Origin: a virus
Length of the DNA: 26,137 nucleotides
Direction: 5' to 3' (one strand)
Virus record (IMG/VR): IMGVR_UViG_3300024520_000436
Coordinates: 1-26,137 of that record
The notes beneath the pieces were generated by a model. The model was not told the DNA's origin. It searched no databases and saw only the letters and a program-made list of their open reading frames with translations. Made by a program: the position numbers and the translations under genes. Below are positions 308-21,206 of this stretch, piece by piece; position 1 is the first letter of the stretch, and each line of letters opens with the position of its first letter.

Positions 308-1546
308 TTATGATGGGTCAGCGCTTTGGTTCGTTGATTGGGAAGAGTTGTCGGCTGCATAGAATCCAACCAAGCGCTGCAGCAAGCGGGACGACGCCGT
401 TTCCCAGTAGTTGTAGTCGCTCGGTTCGACAGTCCCAAGCCGACTCCAGCCAGGAGGCCAGCCCATCAACCACTCGGTGAAATCCGGGTTCAGCCTCAAA
501 CTCTTGCGAAGTTCGAAGGATTCCCACACGCGGGAGAGCAGGGAGTAGGTTTGGAGCCACTCCGGTCCAGGCGTCGTGCTGCTGAGGGCCTGGAGGGTAA
601 ACCGGGTTGATTCCGGACCCAATAGCCGTCCCGCACCATTGCCATTGATCTTCTTCTCCTTCAGCTTCTCCGCCCGGCTGTCGAAGGTCGCGAAGGTCTC
701 GCCATCGTTCATCATGGCGGCTGGCGTCGGCCAGTGCTTCGTCTGGCTCTCCAGGCCCACCTGGCGCTTGCCTTCCTGGGTCGAGCCGTGGCTCTCCACT
801 GTCGAGGCTGGCACGCTGCGTCCGCCGCTCGGAGTCGCCGGGGTCAGCCATTGTATCGATTGGTCTTTCACCCTCTCTCTGTGGTGGCGTTGTAGCCCGC
901 CCTCTGCCGCCCTGTAGGCGCTCACGCGGGGAGTTCCCCACTGTTTGATCGCGTCCGTCAGCGTCGTGCTGCTGAGGCGTCCGCTCTCGGTCGAGTATCC
1001 CTCCGCTCCCGCCTTGTGGTCCGTCACGGTGGCGGTCGGCCATGATGAAGAGTCGCTTTCTAAGGTGTGGCGCAGTTGTTTCCGCCGCGCTAACGACCTC
1101 TTCCGTAACGCAGTAGCCCATGCCTTCCAACTCTTGTCGGACTTCTCGGTAACCGAGGGAGAGGTGTCCGTCGACGTTCTCGAAGAAGCAGATTCCGGGC
1201 TCGACCACCCGAATGATCTCTGAGATGACGGGCCAGAGGTGGCGGGGGTCGTCGGCCCCCGCTCGTCTACCGGCAGAGGAGAACGGTTGACACGGGTATC
1301 CGCCAGTGACGAGATCCACCTTTCCGCGCCACGGTTGAGGGTCGAACGTGCGGAGATCACTCCAGATAGGCGCCTCGTCCAAGAGGCCTTCTTGAATGCG
1401 TTTAACCAGGATCTCGGCTGCGTAAGCTTCCCTTTCCACGTAACAGACGACGCGAGAGCGGAAACCGTCGACTCGTCCGGCAAGCCGGACTCCGAGTTCC
1501 AGTCCGGCGCCTCCGGAACACAAGCTGATGGTACGTAGAGCCACAT
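308..1546 (-). CDS. Overprinted ORF (+1 frame) inside the methyltransferase gene
   Basis: A second frame on the same strand is open from upstream of the methyltransferase start to 308, past its stop. From an ATG at 1546, 16 bases inside the methyltransferase, it would give about 412 residues starting MWLYVPS. It contains four W-x-T repeats (SSWPTATVTD, QWGTPRVS, QWLTPATPSG, HWPTPAAMMNDG) and near the end NPDFTEWLMGWPPGW. From memory, stand-alone hypothetical phage proteins with MW-x-YVPS starts, repeated WPTP and an EWLMGWP-x-GW motif are common in databases. Codon by codon these match the +1 frame of the methyltransferase: (M/L)AD becomes WPT, and PCQPFS becomes the ISSLADT region. Whether it is translated is unknown. 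No convincing ribosome binding site was seen, and long antisense shadows occur elsewhere here, so an unexpressed open frame remains possible. Confidence 0.3.
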   Translation of the reverse strand: MWLYVPSACVPEAPDWNSESGLPDESTVSALASSVTWKGKLTQPRSWLNAFKKASWTRRLSGVISARSTLNRGAERWISSLADTRVNRSPLPVDERGPTTPATSGPSSQRSFGWSSPESASSRTSTDTSPSVTEKSDKSWKAWATALRKRSLARRKQLRHTLESDSSSWPTATVTDHKAGAEGYSTESGRLSSTTLTDAIKQWGTPRVSAYRAAEGGLQRHHRERVKDQSIQWLTPATPSGGRSVPASTVESHGSTQEGKRQVGLESQTKHWPTPAAMMNDGETFATFDSRAEKLKEKKINGNGAGRLLGPESTRFTLQALSSTTPGPEWLQTYSLLSRVWESFELRKSLRLNPDFTEWLMGWPPGWSRLGTVEPSDYNYWETASSRLLQRLVGFYAADNSSQSTNQSADPS

Positions 1547-1562
1547 GGTCTTCAGTCTCCAT
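318..1562 (-). CDS. DNA cytosine-C5 methyltransferase (Dcm family)
   Basis: A 414-residue protein with the C5-MTase motifs in order. Motif I is SLCSGGAGLELG (about residues 13-24, AdoMet binding). Motif IV is GGYPCQPFS (about 87-95, catalytic Cys91). Motif VI is FENV (127-130). Motif VIII is LRKRLFIMA (about 167-175). Near the C-terminus LLGNGVVPLAAALG matches motifs IX/X. It would methylate cytosine C5 in duplex DNA, in phages usually to evade host restriction. Residues about 175-340, the target-recognition region, are long, charged and contain repeated (M/L)AD units. It is the last gene of a minus-strand operon and overlaps the preceding gene by 11 bases. A second frame is open through the whole gene (see the overlapping entry). 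Target sequence cannot be read from the protein. Confidence 0.93.
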   Translation of the reverse strand: METEDHVALRTISLCSGGAGLELGVRLAGRVDGFRSRVVCYVEREAYAAEILVKRIQEGLLDEAPIWSDLRTFDPQPWRGKVDLVTGGYPCQPFSSAGRRAGADDPRHLWPVISEIIRVVEPGICFFENVDGHLSLGYREVRQELEGMGYCVTEEVVSAAETTAPHLRKRLFIMADRHRDGPQGGSGGILDRERTPQQHDADGRDQTVGNSPRERLQGGRGRATTPPQREGERPIDTMADPGDSERRTQRASLDSGEPRLDPGRQAPGGPGEPDEALADASRHDERWRDLRDLRQPGGEAEGEEDQWQWCGTAIGSGINPVYPPGPQQHDAWTGVAPNLLPALPRVGILRTSQEFEAEPGFHRVVDGLASWLESAWDCRTERLQLLGNGVVPLAAALGWILCSRQLFPINEPKR

Positions 1563-2064
1563 CGTCTTGAGCCTTCAGCGCCTCGTGGATTTGGCGGGCG
1601 AATGCGGGTATGTCGCAGACCCAACTAACCTTGTTCGAGAATTCAGTATCGACGTACTCGAAGAGTTCCTCTTCGAGGTCCTCGATGGTGTCTCCTGGTT
1701 CGAAGTTGTCAAGGTCGAGACTGAACTCGTGAGGCCTGGAACCTCCTCCAGCGTAGCCGTCGTCGATCTGCCATGTGATTCTGATTATACTCATCGTCGT
1801 TCTCCTGGGCGTGTTTCCAACGTAATTGTCTGGCTCGGATAGAGCGCTCTCGCCACGGCGGCGACGGGCTGACGGGGAACGGTCGCTGTCGAAGTCGTCA
1901 GCTTGCCGGGATTCTCGTAGGCGGCGCTCCTCTTCGTCAATGATCCGGTCCTCACGGTACTCAATCAGGGCCGTAGCGGAGAACTTCGGCCAGTAGTCGA
2001 TTGCGTCCAGCCGTGGGCTGCTGTCCAGGCGCTCCTGGAAGTGTGCTCGCTCGAGTTCGGTCAT
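1552..2064 (-). CDS. Acidic operon protein of unknown function with an internal start
   Basis: ATG at 2064 overlaps the upstream stop as ATGA, giving 170 residues. The first 90 (MTELERAHFQERL..., then an Arg/Asp-rich stretch) and the last 80 look like two different parts. Inside, an ATG at 1794 (MSIIRITWQIDD) has an excellent ribosome binding site (AGGAG, 7 bases upstream), so an 80-residue product from 1794 to 1552 is likely made, possibly as the main product. That C-terminal part is acidic (DTIEDLEEELFEY) and ends in DDGD. The methyltransferase ATG lies 11 bases inside its end, so the two are probably translationally coupled. No family is recognised. Confidence 0.6.
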   Translation of the reverse strand: MTELERAHFQERLDSSPRLDAIDYWPKFSATALIEYREDRIIDEEERRLRESRQADDFDSDRSPSARRRRGESALSEPDNYVGNTPRRTTMSIIRITWQIDDGYAGGGSRPHEFSLDLDNFEPGDTIEDLEEELFEYVDTEFSNKVSWVCDIPAFARQIHEALKAQDDGD

Positions 2065-2249
2065 GGCGTTGGGGTTGTGGCGGCGGTTTCTCGCCAGTCC
2101 TTGTCGACCCCTACATGTTCGCAGTACAGGTGTTCGGCGGCCCGGTGTAGGATGCGAGCGCCGACCCATTCCTGAGTTGCTTGGCAGAGCTTTGCCAGGG
2201 TCAAGCAAAGCTCACGAGCCGGTCCGTCGTAGAGCATTTTGTATCTCAT
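2061..2249 (-). CDS. Small protein of unknown function, methyltransferase operon
   Basis: A 62-residue ORF joined on both sides by ATGA overlaps: its ATG at 2249 sits on the stop of the 2246-2557 gene, and its TGA at 2061-2063 sits on the start of the next. This tight coupling is the main evidence that it is coding. The sequence is helical (ARELCLTLAKLCQATQEWVGARILHRAAEHLY) with three cysteines and no motif I know. Confidence 0.65.
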   Translation of the reverse strand: MRYKMLYDGPARELCLTLAKLCQATQEWVGARILHRAAEHLYCEHVGVDKDWRETAATTPTP

Positions 2250-2655: not shown

Positions 2656-3298
2656 GCAAATCTGGGAGAAGGGAGCCCTAGACGAAGAGAAGGGGAAGAG
2701 AGAGGGCGCCAGGCCGTACGAGGCCCTGGCTGAGTATCTGAACCTCGGACCCCAGAGAAGTCAAGCAAAAGTTGCCAAGCGGTTGGGTAAAAGTGAAACC
2801 TTGGTCCACAAGTGGGCCTACCAGTGGGACTGGGCACGCCGGACGGACGCCTATGACCACCACATGGCGAAGATCGCCCAGGACGGGCTGGAGGATGATC
2901 TCCGGGGGAACCGATCCGAATGGCTTCGACGCTGGCAGGCTTGCGATGATGATGACACTAAGATTGCCGACGCGATGCTTGAGATTTGCCGGAACTACCT
3001 AGATCTCGCCAAGGACGTCGGCCCGGGCGCCAAAAGGATGCCGGTGACCGGCGAAGAGGTGCTTGTTTTAGGCCTCCCGGCCACCACCCTAGCCCAGGTC
3101 ACGGCGATGGCGAAGACGGCGTCAGAGATGCGCCGGCGGGCGGTGCAGAGCGGGATGTCCCTACATGGAATCAACGCCGATAATATCTGGGGTGATGGCG
3201 AAGCCCCACGACCTGACGGAGGCGTTGAGGGAAAAAGCCCAATCCTCGTTGAATTCAAGAAGCCAGAACCGGCAGAGGCCAGAGAGGCTGCAACCTAG
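2645..3298 (+). CDS. Terminase small subunit (probable)
   Basis: A 217-residue protein directly upstream of, and overlapping, the terminase large subunit by about 104 bases, the usual place for TerS. Residues about 30-65 hold a helix-turn-helix of the terminase small subunit type (QAKVAKRLGKSETLVHKWAYQWDWARR), which would bind phage DNA at the packaging site. The WDW-x-R-R pattern right after the recognition helix is typical of phage TerS-like DNA-binding proteins. The C-terminal half is helical, for oligomerisation and TerL contact. No ribosome binding site precedes ATG 2645, and the start lies inside the divergent promoter region, so the exact start is uncertain. Confidence 0.75.
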   Translation: MEVKQIWEKGALDEEKGKREGARPYEALAEYLNLGPQRSQAKVAKRLGKSETLVHKWAYQWDWARRTDAYDHHMAKIAQDGLEDDLRGNRSEWLRRWQACDDDDTKIADAMLEICRNYLDLAKDVGPGAKRMPVTGEEVLVLGLPATTLAQVTAMAKTASEMRRRAVQSGMSLHGINADNIWGDGEAPRPDGGVEGKSPILVEFKKPEPAEAREAAT

Positions 3299-4625
3299 CT
3301 ACGAACCGCTCCAGAGTCAGTACAGCTTCCACCACACCCCAGCCAAGTTCAAGGGATTCAGCGGCCCAATCGGGTCCGGAAAGACTAAGGCGTTCGCGTA
3401 CGAGGCCCTGAGGCTGGCCTATCTGAATCCTGGCTGCGTCGGGATGATCTGCGCTCCGACCTACCGCATGTTGATGGATGTCACGATGACGGAGTTCATC
3501 GAGACCTGCGAGCGGGAGCAGTTCCCGTACAGGGAGAAGCGGTCGGAGATGCGGGTTGATCTCACGGAAGCTGATTGCGGCATCATCTTCCGGTCGACCG
3601 AGCACCCCGATCGCTTGCGTGGGCCGAACTTGGCATTCTTCGGGGTCGACGAGCTCACCTACTGTAAAGAGCAAGCCTGGAAGATTCTACAGGGTCGCAT
3701 CAGAGACCCCAAGGCGAGAGAGCGCTGTGGGTTTGGGGCATGGACGCCGAAAGGCTACGATTACGTCTATGACATGTTCATCGGCCCGGAGAAGCTGCCG
3801 GGTTTCGAGGCGGTCGTAGCGTCGCCGGCGGAGAACACGTACATCCTGGATGTCGATCCGGAGTTCTACAGCCGCCTCAAGGACAGCTACGACGAGCGGT
3901 TTTACCGCCAAGAGGCGCTGGGCGAATACCTTGACCTGTTCACGGGCCGGGTCTACTACGCCTTCTCGGATCTCAACATCCGGGAGGCGCAGCCGGACTT
4001 CAGTAAACCGCTCATCCTGGCGTGCGATTTCAATATCACCCCGATGTCGTGGCTGATCTGCCAAGAGCGGCAGCCGGAGACGGGCGGTGACCCCTACGTG
4101 CAAGTGCTACACGAGATCGTGCTCGAGGGGGCGACAATCGAGAACGCCTGCGATCACTTCCAGGCATGGGTGGAGCGGACGGCCCCAGGCGTCTCGAGTC
4201 TCAACGTCAGGGTCTACGGAGACTCGTCCGGGTCGTCGAAGTACCACAGTGGAGCAGGGGCTGAGAGCGACTGGGATGCGGTGAAGCTCTGGTTTCGTTC
4301 CAAGCACGGCGTCCAGGTGTCGTACTTCATCAATAGCTCCAACCCGCCGGTCAAAGATCGCGTTAGGGTAGTGAATTCGGTCTTCGCTACGGCGAGGCAT
4401 GATGGGCTACACTTGAGGGCGTTCGTCGATCCATCCTGCAAGGAGACGATCCAGGACTTCCGGCGGGTGGCGTGGAAGATGGACAAGGCTGGCGTAGTGG
4501 CGCCGACGCTCGACAAATCGGACCCGAGAAGGACTCACACCTCTGATGCTTTCGGCTACTACGTATGGCAAGAATTCTCCGAAATCGGCGGAAAAACCGA
4601 ATTCAGGCCGGGGCGAATCTTCTGA
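3195..4625 (+). CDS. terL: Terminase large subunit (packaging ATPase and nuclease)
   Basis: A 476-residue packaging motor. Walker A is GPIGSGKT (residues 57-64) and Walker B is LAFFGVDE (146-153, catalytic Glu153). The C-terminal RNase H-like nuclease domain has acidic residues in LACDFNITP (Asp278), VYGDSSG (Asp343) and HTSDAFGYY (Asp451). It drives DNA into the prohead and cuts concatemers. ATG 3195 (MAKPHD) was chosen over 3165 because GGGG lies just before it; both lie inside the small-subunit gene. Length is normal for the family. Confidence 0.93.
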   Translation: MAKPHDLTEALREKAQSSLNSRSQNRQRPERLQPSYEPLQSQYSFHHTPAKFKGFSGPIGSGKTKAFAYEALRLAYLNPGCVGMICAPTYRMLMDVTMTEFIETCEREQFPYREKRSEMRVDLTEADCGIIFRSTEHPDRLRGPNLAFFGVDELTYCKEQAWKILQGRIRDPKARERCGFGAWTPKGYDYVYDMFIGPEKLPGFEAVVASPAENTYILDVDPEFYSRLKDSYDERFYRQEALGEYLDLFTGRVYYAFSDLNIREAQPDFSKPLILACDFNITPMSWLICQERQPETGGDPYVQVLHEIVLEGATIENACDHFQAWVERTAPGVSSLNVRVYGDSSGSSKYHSGAGAESDWDAVKLWFRSKHGVQVSYFINSSNPPVKDRVRVVNSVFATARHDGLHLRAFVDPSCKETIQDFRRVAWKMDKAGVVAPTLDKSDPRRTHTSDAFGYYVWQEFSEIGGKTEFRPGRIF

Positions 4626-5509: not shown

Positions 5510-5721
5510 CGTAACGATCGTTGGGACGAGGCTTGCCGCCAACGGGCGACACATTGCCATAGTGGTGTGACTGGCGGGGAGAGTACCGCCACAAACGGGG
5601 AGCAGTCTTCGAGCACGGAGGCGCTCCCTGACTGTAGGCGATTGGATAGAATCAGTTCTAACGGGCGAGCGATTCAGCTTTGCTCGAGACTCAGACGGGT
5701 TACAGCCGAGAGTACAACAGC
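5510..5721 (+). other. Non-coding gap with mutually exclusive hairpins before the portal gene
   Basis: This gap has no convincing ORF but strong pairing. CCGCCA (5536-5541) can pair with TGGCGG (5572-5577), closing a stem that also contains CACA/TGTG and CCA/TGG. The same TGGCGG can instead pair with CCGCCA at 5586-5591 across an 8-base loop. A third hairpin (CAGTC...GACTG with GAGC...GCTC inside) covers about 5604-5635. Shared-arm hairpins like this are how attenuators and riboswitch expression platforms work, but there is no uridine run, so termination is not shown. Confidence 0.45.
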
Positions 5722-7281
5722 ATGCCAGACGAACTAGTAACAGAGGCTCCGGCGAAGTTTCCCGGGAAGGTGAAACTCACCGCGATCCGGACGAAGCATC
5801 CCGAATACGTCAAGTGGGAGAATCACTGGAGGCTGTACGATGCTTTGATGTCAGGCGGAGCTAAGCTCAAGGGGTCAGCTACTGCGGTCCTGACACGGCG
5901 GGTGGCGGAGGATAAAACGGCTTGGGAGAAGCGTCTTGAGCGGTTCGCTCCGGACTCCCCTCTGGCGTCGGCGCTTAGCTGGTACTCGTCGGAGTTGTTT
6001 TCTGATGAGCCTGGGTTTGACTTCGCCAAGAAAGAGCAAGGCGGACCAAATAAGGAATGGTTCGAGCGGTTCCGCAAGAACGCCGACCGTGCCGGGACCG
6101 ACCTCGTCGAGGTCGCCCGGGAGGCTGTGCGGCACTTCACGACGTACTGCTGCTCTTGGGTTCACATCGATCGCCCGAAGCTGGCGGAGGGTGCGACCCT
6201 TGCGGATGACCGACAAGAAGAGAACGACCCGTACGTGGTCATGCGGTCGCCGCTGGAGGTCATCAACTGGTCAGAGGATAAGGACGGGTTACTGGAGAAG
6301 GTCGTTATCGAGACGCATCGGCTGGGAGATTTTGATATCGCAACCGGGAAGCGGTCGAAGATCACGGACTTTTTCGTGTACGATCGGGAGGAGTTTGCTC
6401 ACTACCAGCACGTTGAGACGCCGGAGGGAGCCAAAGAGGACTTCGCGGCTCTCCAAGACGAAGGCAGGCACCCGCTAGCGGAAGAGGGCATAGTTCCGGT
6501 GTTGCGCCTGACGGTGTCGCCCCAGTTGTGGCTTGCGGACCGGGCGGGCTATATCCAGAGCGACATGCTCAACGCGGACAGTGAGCTCTCTTGGGCGATG
6601 AATAACGCCCTGCTGGCTCAGCCGTGGATCAAGACGAAAAAGGCTGACCGCTTCGATGCCGCCGTACCGAGAGACGGCGTCGGGCTCATGCTCCTAGAGC
6701 CTGAGGACGAAGTGGGCTACCTCCAGCAAGAGGTGGCGATTCTGGCGGACGGCGAGCGGCGAGTGGCAGCCAAAAAGGACGCCGTACTGAGGGCGGCTCA
6801 CTTATTGCCGCTGGCCCGCGACGCCGGCACGACGTCGATGAATCAGTCAGGCGTGTCGAAAGAGATGGATTTCCGCCTGACGATGAGCATCCTGGAGGGG
6901 ATGGGCGACCAGGTCAAAAAGTTCCTGATCGAGACGGTCAACGCAGCTGCGAAAGCTGGTGGGCGAGAGATCGAGCTCGTCGACATTCGCGGCCTGCACT
7001 TCACTCCGGACGAAGCCGCCCGGATGGCTAGCACGAATCTCCAAGATGCGAGGCTGCTCGGTCTTGAGACGGTGACGCCGACAGCGATCCAGTACCTTCG
7101 GAAGGTCTGGCTGCAGAGCGCTCTTGCCGACGCCCAGCGTGAGGTGAAGGAAGGCGCCATCAAGGAACTCGAGGACGCTCCAAGCAGCAAGGAAGAGGCG
7201 GAGCGCAAAGAGAAGCTCCGTGCTGAGCAGCTTGCTGCGGCGGCTGGCGGCGAGGACGACGACGGAGACGAAGAGGCTTAG
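5722..7281 (+). CDS. Portal protein (probable, DUF4055-like)
   Basis: A 519-residue protein from ATG 5722 (MPDELVTEAP); a TTG at 5680 in frame is less likely. Residues about 30-150 are helical, followed by a typical portal pattern RSPLEVINWSEDKDGLLEKVVIETHR and later YIQSDMLNADSELSWAMNNALL. The C-terminal third is helical (stem/crown) and ends in an acidic low-complexity tail EDDDGDEEA. Portals of this type form the dodecameric ring at the capsid vertex through which DNA is packaged and the tail attaches. Length, position after terminase and before scaffold/capsid, and these patterns support the call. Its TAG stop ends on the first base of tRNA-Ala. Confidence 0.82.
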   Translation: MPDELVTEAPAKFPGKVKLTAIRTKHPEYVKWENHWRLYDALMSGGAKLKGSATAVLTRRVAEDKTAWEKRLERFAPDSPLASALSWYSSELFSDEPGFDFAKKEQGGPNKEWFERFRKNADRAGTDLVEVAREAVRHFTTYCCSWVHIDRPKLAEGATLADDRQEENDPYVVMRSPLEVINWSEDKDGLLEKVVIETHRLGDFDIATGKRSKITDFFVYDREEFAHYQHVETPEGAKEDFAALQDEGRHPLAEEGIVPVLRLTVSPQLWLADRAGYIQSDMLNADSELSWAMNNALLAQPWIKTKKADRFDAAVPRDGVGLMLLEPEDEVGYLQQEVAILADGERRVAAKKDAVLRAAHLLPLARDAGTTSMNQSGVSKEMDFRLTMSILEGMGDQVKKFLIETVNAAAKAGGREIELVDIRGLHFTPDEAARMASTNLQDARLLGLETVTPTAIQYLRKVWLQSALADAQREVKEGAIKELEDAPSSKEEAERKEKLRAEQLAAAAGGEDDDGDEEA

Positions 7282-11641: not shown

Positions 11642-12538
11642 ATGGCAGACTACACAACTGCACAACTGCAGCAATTCCTGACCGTGTTGAGCTCGCGGGC
11701 GATCCCTTCGCTTCGTAGCGCTATCTTCATGGGTCAGATCATCGGGCGGAACTTCGAGCCGCAGATCTCGAGCGAGGGCGATACCGTCCAGGTTCCGATC
11801 CCTCCGACACTGACGGTCGAAGAGGTCGGCGAGGGAGCGACCTACACCGATCAGGCGCCTACGCCGGACTTCGCTCAGGTCGTGCTGAGCAAGCACAAGG
11901 TCGTGCCATTCGCGGTGACCGACATGGCTCGGATCATCAACGGCGGGATCGACGCTGTCGACCTGCTGCTCGAGCCGGCAATGATCGCGATTGCGGAGGC
12001 GATCGAGACCGACATTTACAACCTGTACCCGAACTTCGCGAGCATCGGTACCGCTGGCGTCAACCCGACCGAGGGCTTGATCGACCAGGCCGAGCGCACG
12101 CTGTTCGACAACAAGGTTCCGTCCTCGTCTCCGCTGTGGCTGGCATGCGCCTCGACGCCGTACTCGGTACTGCGTCAAATCGCCCGCTTCTCCGAAGTGG
12201 ACGCCATCAACAGCGGCACCGCGATCGTGACGGGCCGGCTCGGCCAACTGAAGGGCTTCAACGTCCTTCGGTCGCAGCTTGTCCCGGTGACGGGCTCCGG
12301 CCCTGCGTCGACTCATAACCTGGCGTTTGCGCCGGGTGCGATGACCCTGGCGATGCGCCGGCTGCCGGCTCCCGACCCGGGCACTGGCGCCGTTGCCGTG
12401 TACGCCGAGGAAGACGGCTACGGCATGCGGATCATGACCAGCTACAATCACGCCACCATGAAACAGCAGTGGACGGTGGACGTGCTGTACGGCGTCGCAA
12501 CGGTTCGGGCCGCTTTCGGGCTGCGTGTCCTGACGTAG
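11642..12538 (+). CDS. Major capsid protein (HK97-fold, P22 coat-like)
   Basis: A 298-residue protein with a good ribosome binding site (AGGAG) before ATG 11642. The N-terminal helix (LQQFLTVLSSRAIPSLRSA) leads into GDTVQVPIPPTLTVEEV and HKVVPFAVTDMA, a pattern of HK97-fold coat proteins of the P22 gp5-like group. A long spine-like helix follows (EPAMIAIAEAIETDIYNLY). Later strands contain YSVLRQIARFSEVD and GRLGQLKGFNVLRSQ, typical of these proteins. The scaffold gene upstream and small virion genes downstream support the call. The opposite strand is also open over its length, which I treat as a shadow. Confidence 0.85.
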   Translation: MADYTTAQLQQFLTVLSSRAIPSLRSAIFMGQIIGRNFEPQISSEGDTVQVPIPPTLTVEEVGEGATYTDQAPTPDFAQVVLSKHKVVPFAVTDMARIINGGIDAVDLLLEPAMIAIAEAIETDIYNLYPNFASIGTAGVNPTEGLIDQAERTLFDNKVPSSSPLWLACASTPYSVLRQIARFSEVDAINSGTAIVTGRLGQLKGFNVLRSQLVPVTGSGPASTHNLAFAPGAMTLAMRRLPAPDPGTGAVAVYAEEDGYGMRIMTSYNHATMKQQWTVDVLYGVATVRAAFGLRVLT

Positions 12539-20618: not shown

Positions 20619-21206
20619 ATGCAAGGAAATCCAAAGATCATGGTCGGCGACATCGTGATGACACGGGCCGACACGTTTCTGGGCTGGGCGATCCGCAGTG
20701 CTACTCGAGGCCGGGGCGAGAAGCGTAGCTGGGTCAACCACGTCGGCGTGATCGTGAGCGGCGACAGCCTCACCAACGCCGTGATCGTTGAGGCTCTCCA
20801 CAGGGTCGAGAAGCGTCACCTCTGGGGCGCCTACGCCGGCAAGGAGACCGATGTGGCGATCTTCCGCATGAAGGACTTGCGGGACGACGAGAGGGCCAAG
20901 CTGTCGGAGTGCGCCGAGCGGTACGTTGGCAAGCGCTACGGGTACGCCAAGATCGGTTTGCAGTGGATTGACTCCGTCATCGGGAGAGCTCGCGGAAAGC
21001 ACACTTACTGGTTCCGCCGGCTGGGATTTATCGACTCGATGCCGATCTGCAGCGTGTTAGTGGCGACGTGCTTCCGGTCAATCGGTCGGTCGTTTGGTGT
21101 TCCGGCAGAGGCCGCCACACCGGATGATATCTGGGACTGGTGCAACGACCACAGACGGAGATTCGAGCAGGTTCTAGAGCTAGGGCCGCTCAAGGCTGAA
21201 TACTAA
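20619..21206 (+). CDS. Papain-like (permuted NlpC/P60, YiiX-type) cysteine peptidase or amidase
   Basis: A 195-residue protein with the circularly permuted NlpC/P60 layout: an early VGDIVMTRAD strand pair, a His motif WVNHVGVIV (about residue 48), a Glu-containing segment IVEALHRVEKRH, a YGYAKIGLQWID segment and a late Cys motif PICSVLVATCF (about 140-150). Members of this group cleave peptide, amide or thioester bonds; phage versions may act on cell wall or lipid-linked substrates. It is a possible lysis or entry enzyme, but no wall-binding domain is seen. The start may be ATG 20619 or 20640; an AAGGA lies before 20640. Divergent from the LuxR gene. Confidence 0.75.
   Translation: MQGNPKIMVGDIVMTRADTFLGWAIRSATRGRGEKRSWVNHVGVIVSGDSLTNAVIVEALHRVEKRHLWGAYAGKETDVAIFRMKDLRDDERAKLSECAERYVGKRYGYAKIGLQWIDSVIGRARGKHTYWFRRLGFIDSMPICSVLVATCFRSIGRSFGVPAEAATPDDIWDWCNDHRRRFEQVLELGPLKAEY

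Follow-up and report, generated by a model that had tools for sequence, protein, structure and literature searches.

Two reading frames at the methyltransferase locus

The window, the whole stretch of DNA that was analysed, is 26,137 nucleotides long (positions 1-26,137 of IMGVR_UViG_3300024520_000436), and the gene under study is on its minus strand. We refer to the frame encoding the enzyme as α and to the +1 frame on the same strand as β (Table 1). The match of α to PF00145 is confined to residues 10-180, and motifs I, IV (PCQ), VI (ENV) and VIII are located in α. An earlier note on this DNA had proposed that a second long frame overprints the whole methyltransferase gene, and the +1 frame is indeed open from 1624 to 308 (438 codons counted from a TTG), with α sitting one base behind. 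The note also had the +1 frame passing both ends of α. This is correct for the open frame, but the likely protein starts at the ATG at 1546, inside α, and continues for 412 codons to the stop at 310-308. The segment from 1547 to 1624 is a mere upstream extension of the frame over the tail of the preceding gene. The W-x-T repeats and the EWLMGWPPGW motif described for the +1 product are both present, and their double reading is as had been noticed: ATC ATG GCC GAC CGC is IMADR in the α frame and (S)WPTA in the +1 frame, and the RVVDGLA region of the enzyme reads EWLMGW in +1.

The β of the window matches phrog_1008 and four other PHROGs, and it matches no Pfam or NCBIfam family; a PADLOC search with β also gave no match. 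All 85 aligned βs match phrog_1008, in agreement with the suggestion that a recurring protein family lies over Dcm-type genes, and a Pfam search of these 85 gave no match of any kind. Other genes of the window include those for a terminase (3165-4625), a portal (5680-7281) and a major head protein (11642-12538). An unusual cargo gene on the plus strand (20619-21206) resembles enoyl-CoA hydratase/carnitine racemase-like phage proteins (phrog_1128, 8e-10).

Table 1. Features of the α/β locus in the window.
Feature	Position	Strand	Evidence
α: C5-cytosine methyltransferase catalytic subunit, 414 aa, motifs I-VIII and X, low-complexity middle	318..1562	-	PF00145 1.4e-26 over aa 10-180; phrog_363 9e-50
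β: overprinted +1 frame, 412 aa, MWLYVPS..., stop 310-308	308..1546	-	open frame; phrog_1008 1.6e-17; 0 stops vs 5.3 expected, P=2e-4
Paired start region: α ATG 1562-1560, β ATG 1546-1544, alternative α GTG 1544-1542 within ATGTGG	1542..1562	-	sequence; start spacing in relatives
β N-terminal signature MWLYVPS	1526..1546	-	sequence; M/V-(S/T)-W-[LI] start kept in relatives
α motif IV GYPCQPFSSAG (catalytic Cys)	1269..1301	-	sequence
α motif VI CFFENVD	1170..1190	-	sequence
α motif VIII region APHLRKRLFIM	1041..1073	-	sequence
β module 1 WPTATVTDHKAGAEGYSTESGRLSSTTLTDAIKQ	941..1042	-	module comparison; same type in L084
β module 2 WGTPRVSAYRAAEGGLQRHHRERVKDQSIQ	851..940	-	module comparison
β module 3 WLTPATPSGGRSVPASTVESHGSTQEGKRQVGLESQTKH	734..850	-	module comparison; same type in L012, L034, L040
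β module 4 WPTPAAMMNDGETF... and linker to motif IX	494..733	-	module comparison
β motif IX LNPDFTEWLMGWPPGW	446..493	-	invariant core in alignment A1; shares the frame of motif X in single-chain enzymes
α motif X LLGNGVVPLAAALG	369..410	-	sequence

Selection on the +1 frame

The β protein was used to fetch at least 23 other viral loci, and in all of the 23 the +1 frame of the methyltransferase is β. Because fetching with β biases the sample, further relatives were collected from viral contigs and bacterial genomes using just the enzyme as query. As a null model, each enzyme's own codons were shuffled synonymously, which keeps both the protein and the codon usage. Over motifs I-VIII, 80 non-redundant genes have 2 stops in the +1 frame, compared to 158.5±7.6 expected, and in the middle region there are 3 compared to 94.2±6.4 (62 genes). 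The +2 frame, used as a control, is near expectation in both (426 vs 458 over motifs I-VIII and 392 vs 391 in the middle). Conversely, frame 0 has no stops in the middle region, compared to 241 if the codons of β are shuffled, in a gene set that required frame 0 to be open to motif X. The deficit of +1 stops persists in genes of 47-48% GC (L005, L006, L009), and the distant Dcm genes L156, L182, L184 and L187 show no such deficit. For the window alone, a zero-stop outcome occurred in 0.02% of 20,000 synonymous shuffles.

Codon periodicity also points to selection on β. In 18 independent pairs, changes at enzyme codon positions 1, 2 and 3 number 210, 118 and 577 over motifs I-VIII, which is the normal periodicity. 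In the middle region the periodicity of these pairs is inverted (482/197/217, P=5e-24), and the C-terminal part is intermediate (100/39/125). Position 1 of the enzyme is the wobble position of the +1 frame, and the inversion thus indicates that the +1 frame is under the stronger protein-level selection in the middle region. In addition, β-frame similarity to the window is above the synonymous-shuffle null in each of three regions (mean z 3.1, 3.6 and 3.5; 87 loci). Selection was measured on the family because the window lineage has no close non-identical relative.

Given the stop deficits, the codon periodicity and the β-frame similarity to the window, the most likely reading is that each frame is coding from end to end. 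Based on these sequence comparisons, we conclude that β is a real gene, whose frame selection has kept free of stops throughout the family. The earlier note had left the choice between a real overprinted gene and an annotation artefact, and had proposed comparing homologues with codon-shuffled controls. The +1 frame turned out to be far more open than such controls, and the two results that the note had named as contrary, frequent +1 stops in homologous methyltransferases and no constraint on the +1 frame beyond that of the enzyme, were not found.

The start region

The starts of the two frames are close together in nearly all of the relatives compared. The nearest α start is at -4 nt (52 relatives), +2 (51) or +5 (11) from the β start in 114 of the 116 relatives with an identifiable β start, and the β start codon is ATG in 97 of the 116. 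The +2 class is weaker evidence because a GTG comes automatically with ATG-TGG; in many genes of this class, that GTG is the only nearby α start. In the window, the two ATGs are 16 nt apart, with that of α lying upstream, and 5 nt separate the β ATG from the stop of the gene before it. This upstream gene (1552-2208, minus strand) encodes 218 aa, has no PHROG match and overlaps the α start. Termination-reinitiation coupling with this gene is possible, and the α and β starts may share ribosome recruitment.

Motif IX and modules in the +1 frame

α lacks motif IX. In the window, motif IX is in the +1 frame and motif X is in α, and β carries LNPxFxEWLMGWPxGW at the place of motif IX. An architecture census found at least 117 loci with motif IX and the modules in the +1 frame and motif X in frame 0. 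Where β has motif IX, α is without it, and motif X is found in either frame; for example, the βs of L046 and L093 hold both IX and X.

Several relatives have these parts in other arrangements. In ShiLan gp70 (L030), L161, L162 and L158, the sequence L[SA]PxFxEW[LM]MG..., followed by motif X, is in frame with motifs I-VIII. In the single-chain actinophage enzymes ShiLan gp70, L200, L202, L203 and L211-L213, LLPTP modules, motif IX (EWMMGWPAGW) and motif X are all in one frame with motifs I-VIII. The in-frame modules of single-chain enzymes match the β modules of overprinted genes (best E 1e-11), and a β profile finds ShiLan gp70 (4e-15, 10-sequence set) and Heather gp36. In the Streptomyces phages phiBT1 and Heather, α stops after motif VIII, and the modules, IX and X are in the +1 frame; Heather gp36 is a separate β. 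These forms, like those of L046 and L093, are intermediates. The earlier note had wondered whether the family is always the alternative frame of Dcm-type genes. This is so for all β matches found in 299 Pseudomonadota genomes, which lie in the +1 frame of a methyltransferase, but not in actinophages, in which the modules are in the frame of a single-chain enzyme or in a separate subunit without an overprint over its length.

Since the modules and motif IX are in frame with motifs I-VIII and X in single-chain enzymes, the W-P-T-P modules are probably target-recognition units. A structure model of single-chain L203 has the C5-methyltransferase fold (M.HhaI, Z 21.0, rmsd 4.0 Å, 245 aligned residues). 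The modules are modelled with low confidence in L203 (residues 191-224 and 233-250), so their role as DNA readers is one that we infer. When motif IX of the single-chain enzymes was aligned to M.HhaI with HMMER, the match was not significant by itself; the equivalence of motif IX is based on its position, on the single-chain relatives and on the fold match of the model. A search of PDB sequences with the β profile gave weak capsid-protein matches only, which we judged spurious. Modelled alone, the β of the window has no confident fold (mean pLDDT 54.5, pTM 0.27), which would be compatible with an obligate partner. The N-terminal third of β has no counterpart in single-chain enzymes. Overall, the overprinted β seems to be no unrelated extra but to supply what α lacks of the enzyme (motif IX and the recognition modules), a point that the earlier note had missed.

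The arrays in β consist of 1-7 modules per gene (315 modules in 97 genes; median 36 aa), starting with W-P-T-P or similar. Module types are common to lineages with far-apart α proteins. Of 198 pairs with closely related α proteins, 143 have different arrays. Such shuffling would be the behaviour of exchangeable target-recognition units, and each module may read one DNA target. Over the middle region, it is the β sequence that is conserved and not that of α.

Distribution and annotation

At least 14 of 299 sampled Pseudomonadota genomes (approximately 5%) have a β, each over an α; one of the 14 is the centre of the sample. Locus counts from the collection searches are lower bounds. The earlier note had recommended looking for WPTP-family proteins that do not overlap a methyltransferase: among the β matches listed in the 299 Pseudomonadota genomes there were no standalone WPTP proteins, and the exceptions are the single-chain and split enzymes of actinophages.

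The two frames have been annotated in different ways. In Acidovorax phage Alfacinha1 (OP131590.1; L029:1499-2632), the CDS gp46, 'cytosine-specific methyltransferase', is the β frame and the catalytic frame is unannotated. In Synechococcus phage Ssp-JY39 (PP438429.1; L031:1505-2620), the hypothetical protein XAI96804.1 is the β frame and α is unannotated. The other GenBank records that we inspected list α only. In E. coli PCP07014 (L197:2510-3271), RefSeq calls α a pseudogene with an internal stop, and the β frame is broken at about the same place. In L098:2481-3953 and L071:1508-2944, α closes early, there is extra sequence before motif X, and the β frame then enters motif X. The extra sequence is possibly an inserted element, comparable to the hidden HNH insertions described in phage methylases (PMC11855218).

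A probable split and overprinted enzyme, and other explanations

We believe, with a probability of roughly 0.88 on the sequence evidence, that this locus holds the gene of a C5-cytosine methyltransferase split into two subunits, each overprinted on the other. By sequence, frame 0 (α) encodes the domain for SAM binding and catalysis (motifs I-VIII), which a fast-changing low-complexity stretch links to motif X at the C terminus. The +1 frame (β) encodes the array of W-P-T-P modules over that low-complexity stretch, and then motif IX. A single mRNA with one ribosome-binding region would carry both start codons, which are separated by a few bases (16 nt in the window). α and β would then assemble into one enzyme, with α responsible for catalysis and β contributing the target-recognition (small) domain and motif IX. 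Multiple exchangeable modules could confer several, easily changed target specificities, and premethylation of its own DNA might protect the phage against host restriction enzymes.

Other explanations account for parts of these observations. If β were an annotation artefact, GC-rich codons and the shadow cast by a conserved enzyme would be all that keeps the +1 frame open. The GC content near 60% and the antisense open frames elsewhere in the window fit such an artefact, and the earlier note was right to warn that open frames alone are weak evidence. However, there are 2 stops against the 158 predicted by shuffles that preserve the protein and its codon usage, no comparable deficit exists in the +2 frame, the signal persists at 47-48% GC, and the codon periodicity inverts in the middle. 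A codon-bias shadow is thus ruled out at the family level by the synonymous shuffles, the +2 control and the codon periodicity, and an artefact is, of all the explanations, the one to which we give the least credence, close to none. Programmed frameshifting would have translation start in frame 0 and shift by +1 after motif VIII, producing one chain (I-VIII, modules and IX) and no β from its own start. This leaves unexplained the openness of the +1 frame across motifs I-VIII, the presence of a start codon before W-[LI] with an α start within 5 nt, and the openness of frame 0 onward to motif X, and Heather gp36 is a separate β. Even though motifs I-VIII in frame 0 followed by modules and IX in +1 is the order of a single chain, and natural single-chain enzymes exist, we consider frameshifting very unlikely.

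It is just as unlikely, in our judgment, that the overprinted gene is real but β does something unrelated (e.g., anti-restriction or regulation) and resembles motif IX by chance. Single-chain C5-methyltransferases contain the modules and motif IX in their own frame, with significant similarity, and α is without IX where β has it, with motif X in either frame. These observations speak against an unrelated function, although none of the 85 βs matches Pfam and the N-terminal third of β is without a counterpart in single-chain enzymes.

Beyond the split enzyme of the window, we suspect, with good but lesser confidence, that such methyltransferases form a widespread class in phages and bacteria, with catalytic and recognition subunits that are full-length overprints started at almost the same point of the mRNA. 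In this class, specificity would evolve by module shuffling under the constraint of two frames, and frameshift mutations would interconvert split and single-chain forms. To our knowledge, it is rare for a same-strand overprint of approximately 1.2 kb to encode two conserved proteins that apparently belong to one enzyme. The present overprint is found repeatedly in phages and bacterial genomes and is without a Pfam family, and its annotation is inconsistent, with some records having β without the catalytic frame and others α without β. Our results suggest that many phage 'Dcm' enzymes would be inactive if tested as single proteins. The single-chain, split and overprinted forms are a natural series for studying the origin of overlapping genes, and the DNA targets of the module catalogue could be read out by methylome sequencing.

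Comparison with known systems

Parts of this arrangement have counterparts in other methyltransferases. The multispecific C5-methyltransferases of the Bacillus phages SPbeta, rho11 and phi3T are single chains with several exchangeable recognition modules of approximately 40 residues in the variable region. The window similarly has apparently exchangeable modules in the variable region but, unlike in these phages, the enzyme appears to be split over two frames. M.AquI (CYCGRG) is a C5-methyltransferase split into two chains within the variable region, and its small subunit has motifs IX and X (PMC3404938). phiBT1 and Heather have a layout like that of M.AquI, with IX and X in the small chain, and have the same kind of modules as the window. 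In contrast to M.AquI, the window has motif X in α, and its two chains overprint each other over their length.

The ShiLan domain is an out-of-frame HNH endonuclease hidden in phage methylases, an inserted homing element (PMC11855218). It shares with the window an out-of-frame coding sequence hidden in a phage DNA methylase gene. We considered the +1 frame as an HNH insertion of this kind and dropped the idea, as β spans the whole gene from the start region and has no Pfam match. Unlike the ShiLan domain, the overprint in the window is not an insertion, covers the whole gene and appears to encode part of the enzyme itself.

The window system is probably of the M.EcoHK31I kind. In M.EcoHK31I (YGGCCR), the gene of the large subunit contains a second frame that encodes the small subunit, which is much shorter than the β of the window. 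A partner in another frame of the α gene is found in the window and in more than 100 relatives. M.EcoHK31I was reportedly found by Lee, Kam & Shaw in 1995 to be a C5-methyltransferase of two polypeptides. Motifs I-VIII and X of M.EcoHK31I are on the large subunit and motif IX is on the small subunit, and the predicted target-recognition domain has been placed in the large subunit (PMC3404938). The window shares with it an α with motifs I-VIII and X and a partner with motif IX. In contrast to that placement, the modules of the recognition region are here in the β frame. Also unlike M.EcoHK31I, the β of the window spans nearly the whole α gene (412 vs 414 codons) and starts close to it, and arrays in the family have 1-7 modules. 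We found no paper in the open-access literature that we searched that describes this overprint. Compared to M.EcoHK31I, what is new here is a putative recognition array in β, an overprint of the whole gene, and a system that is both widespread and misannotated.
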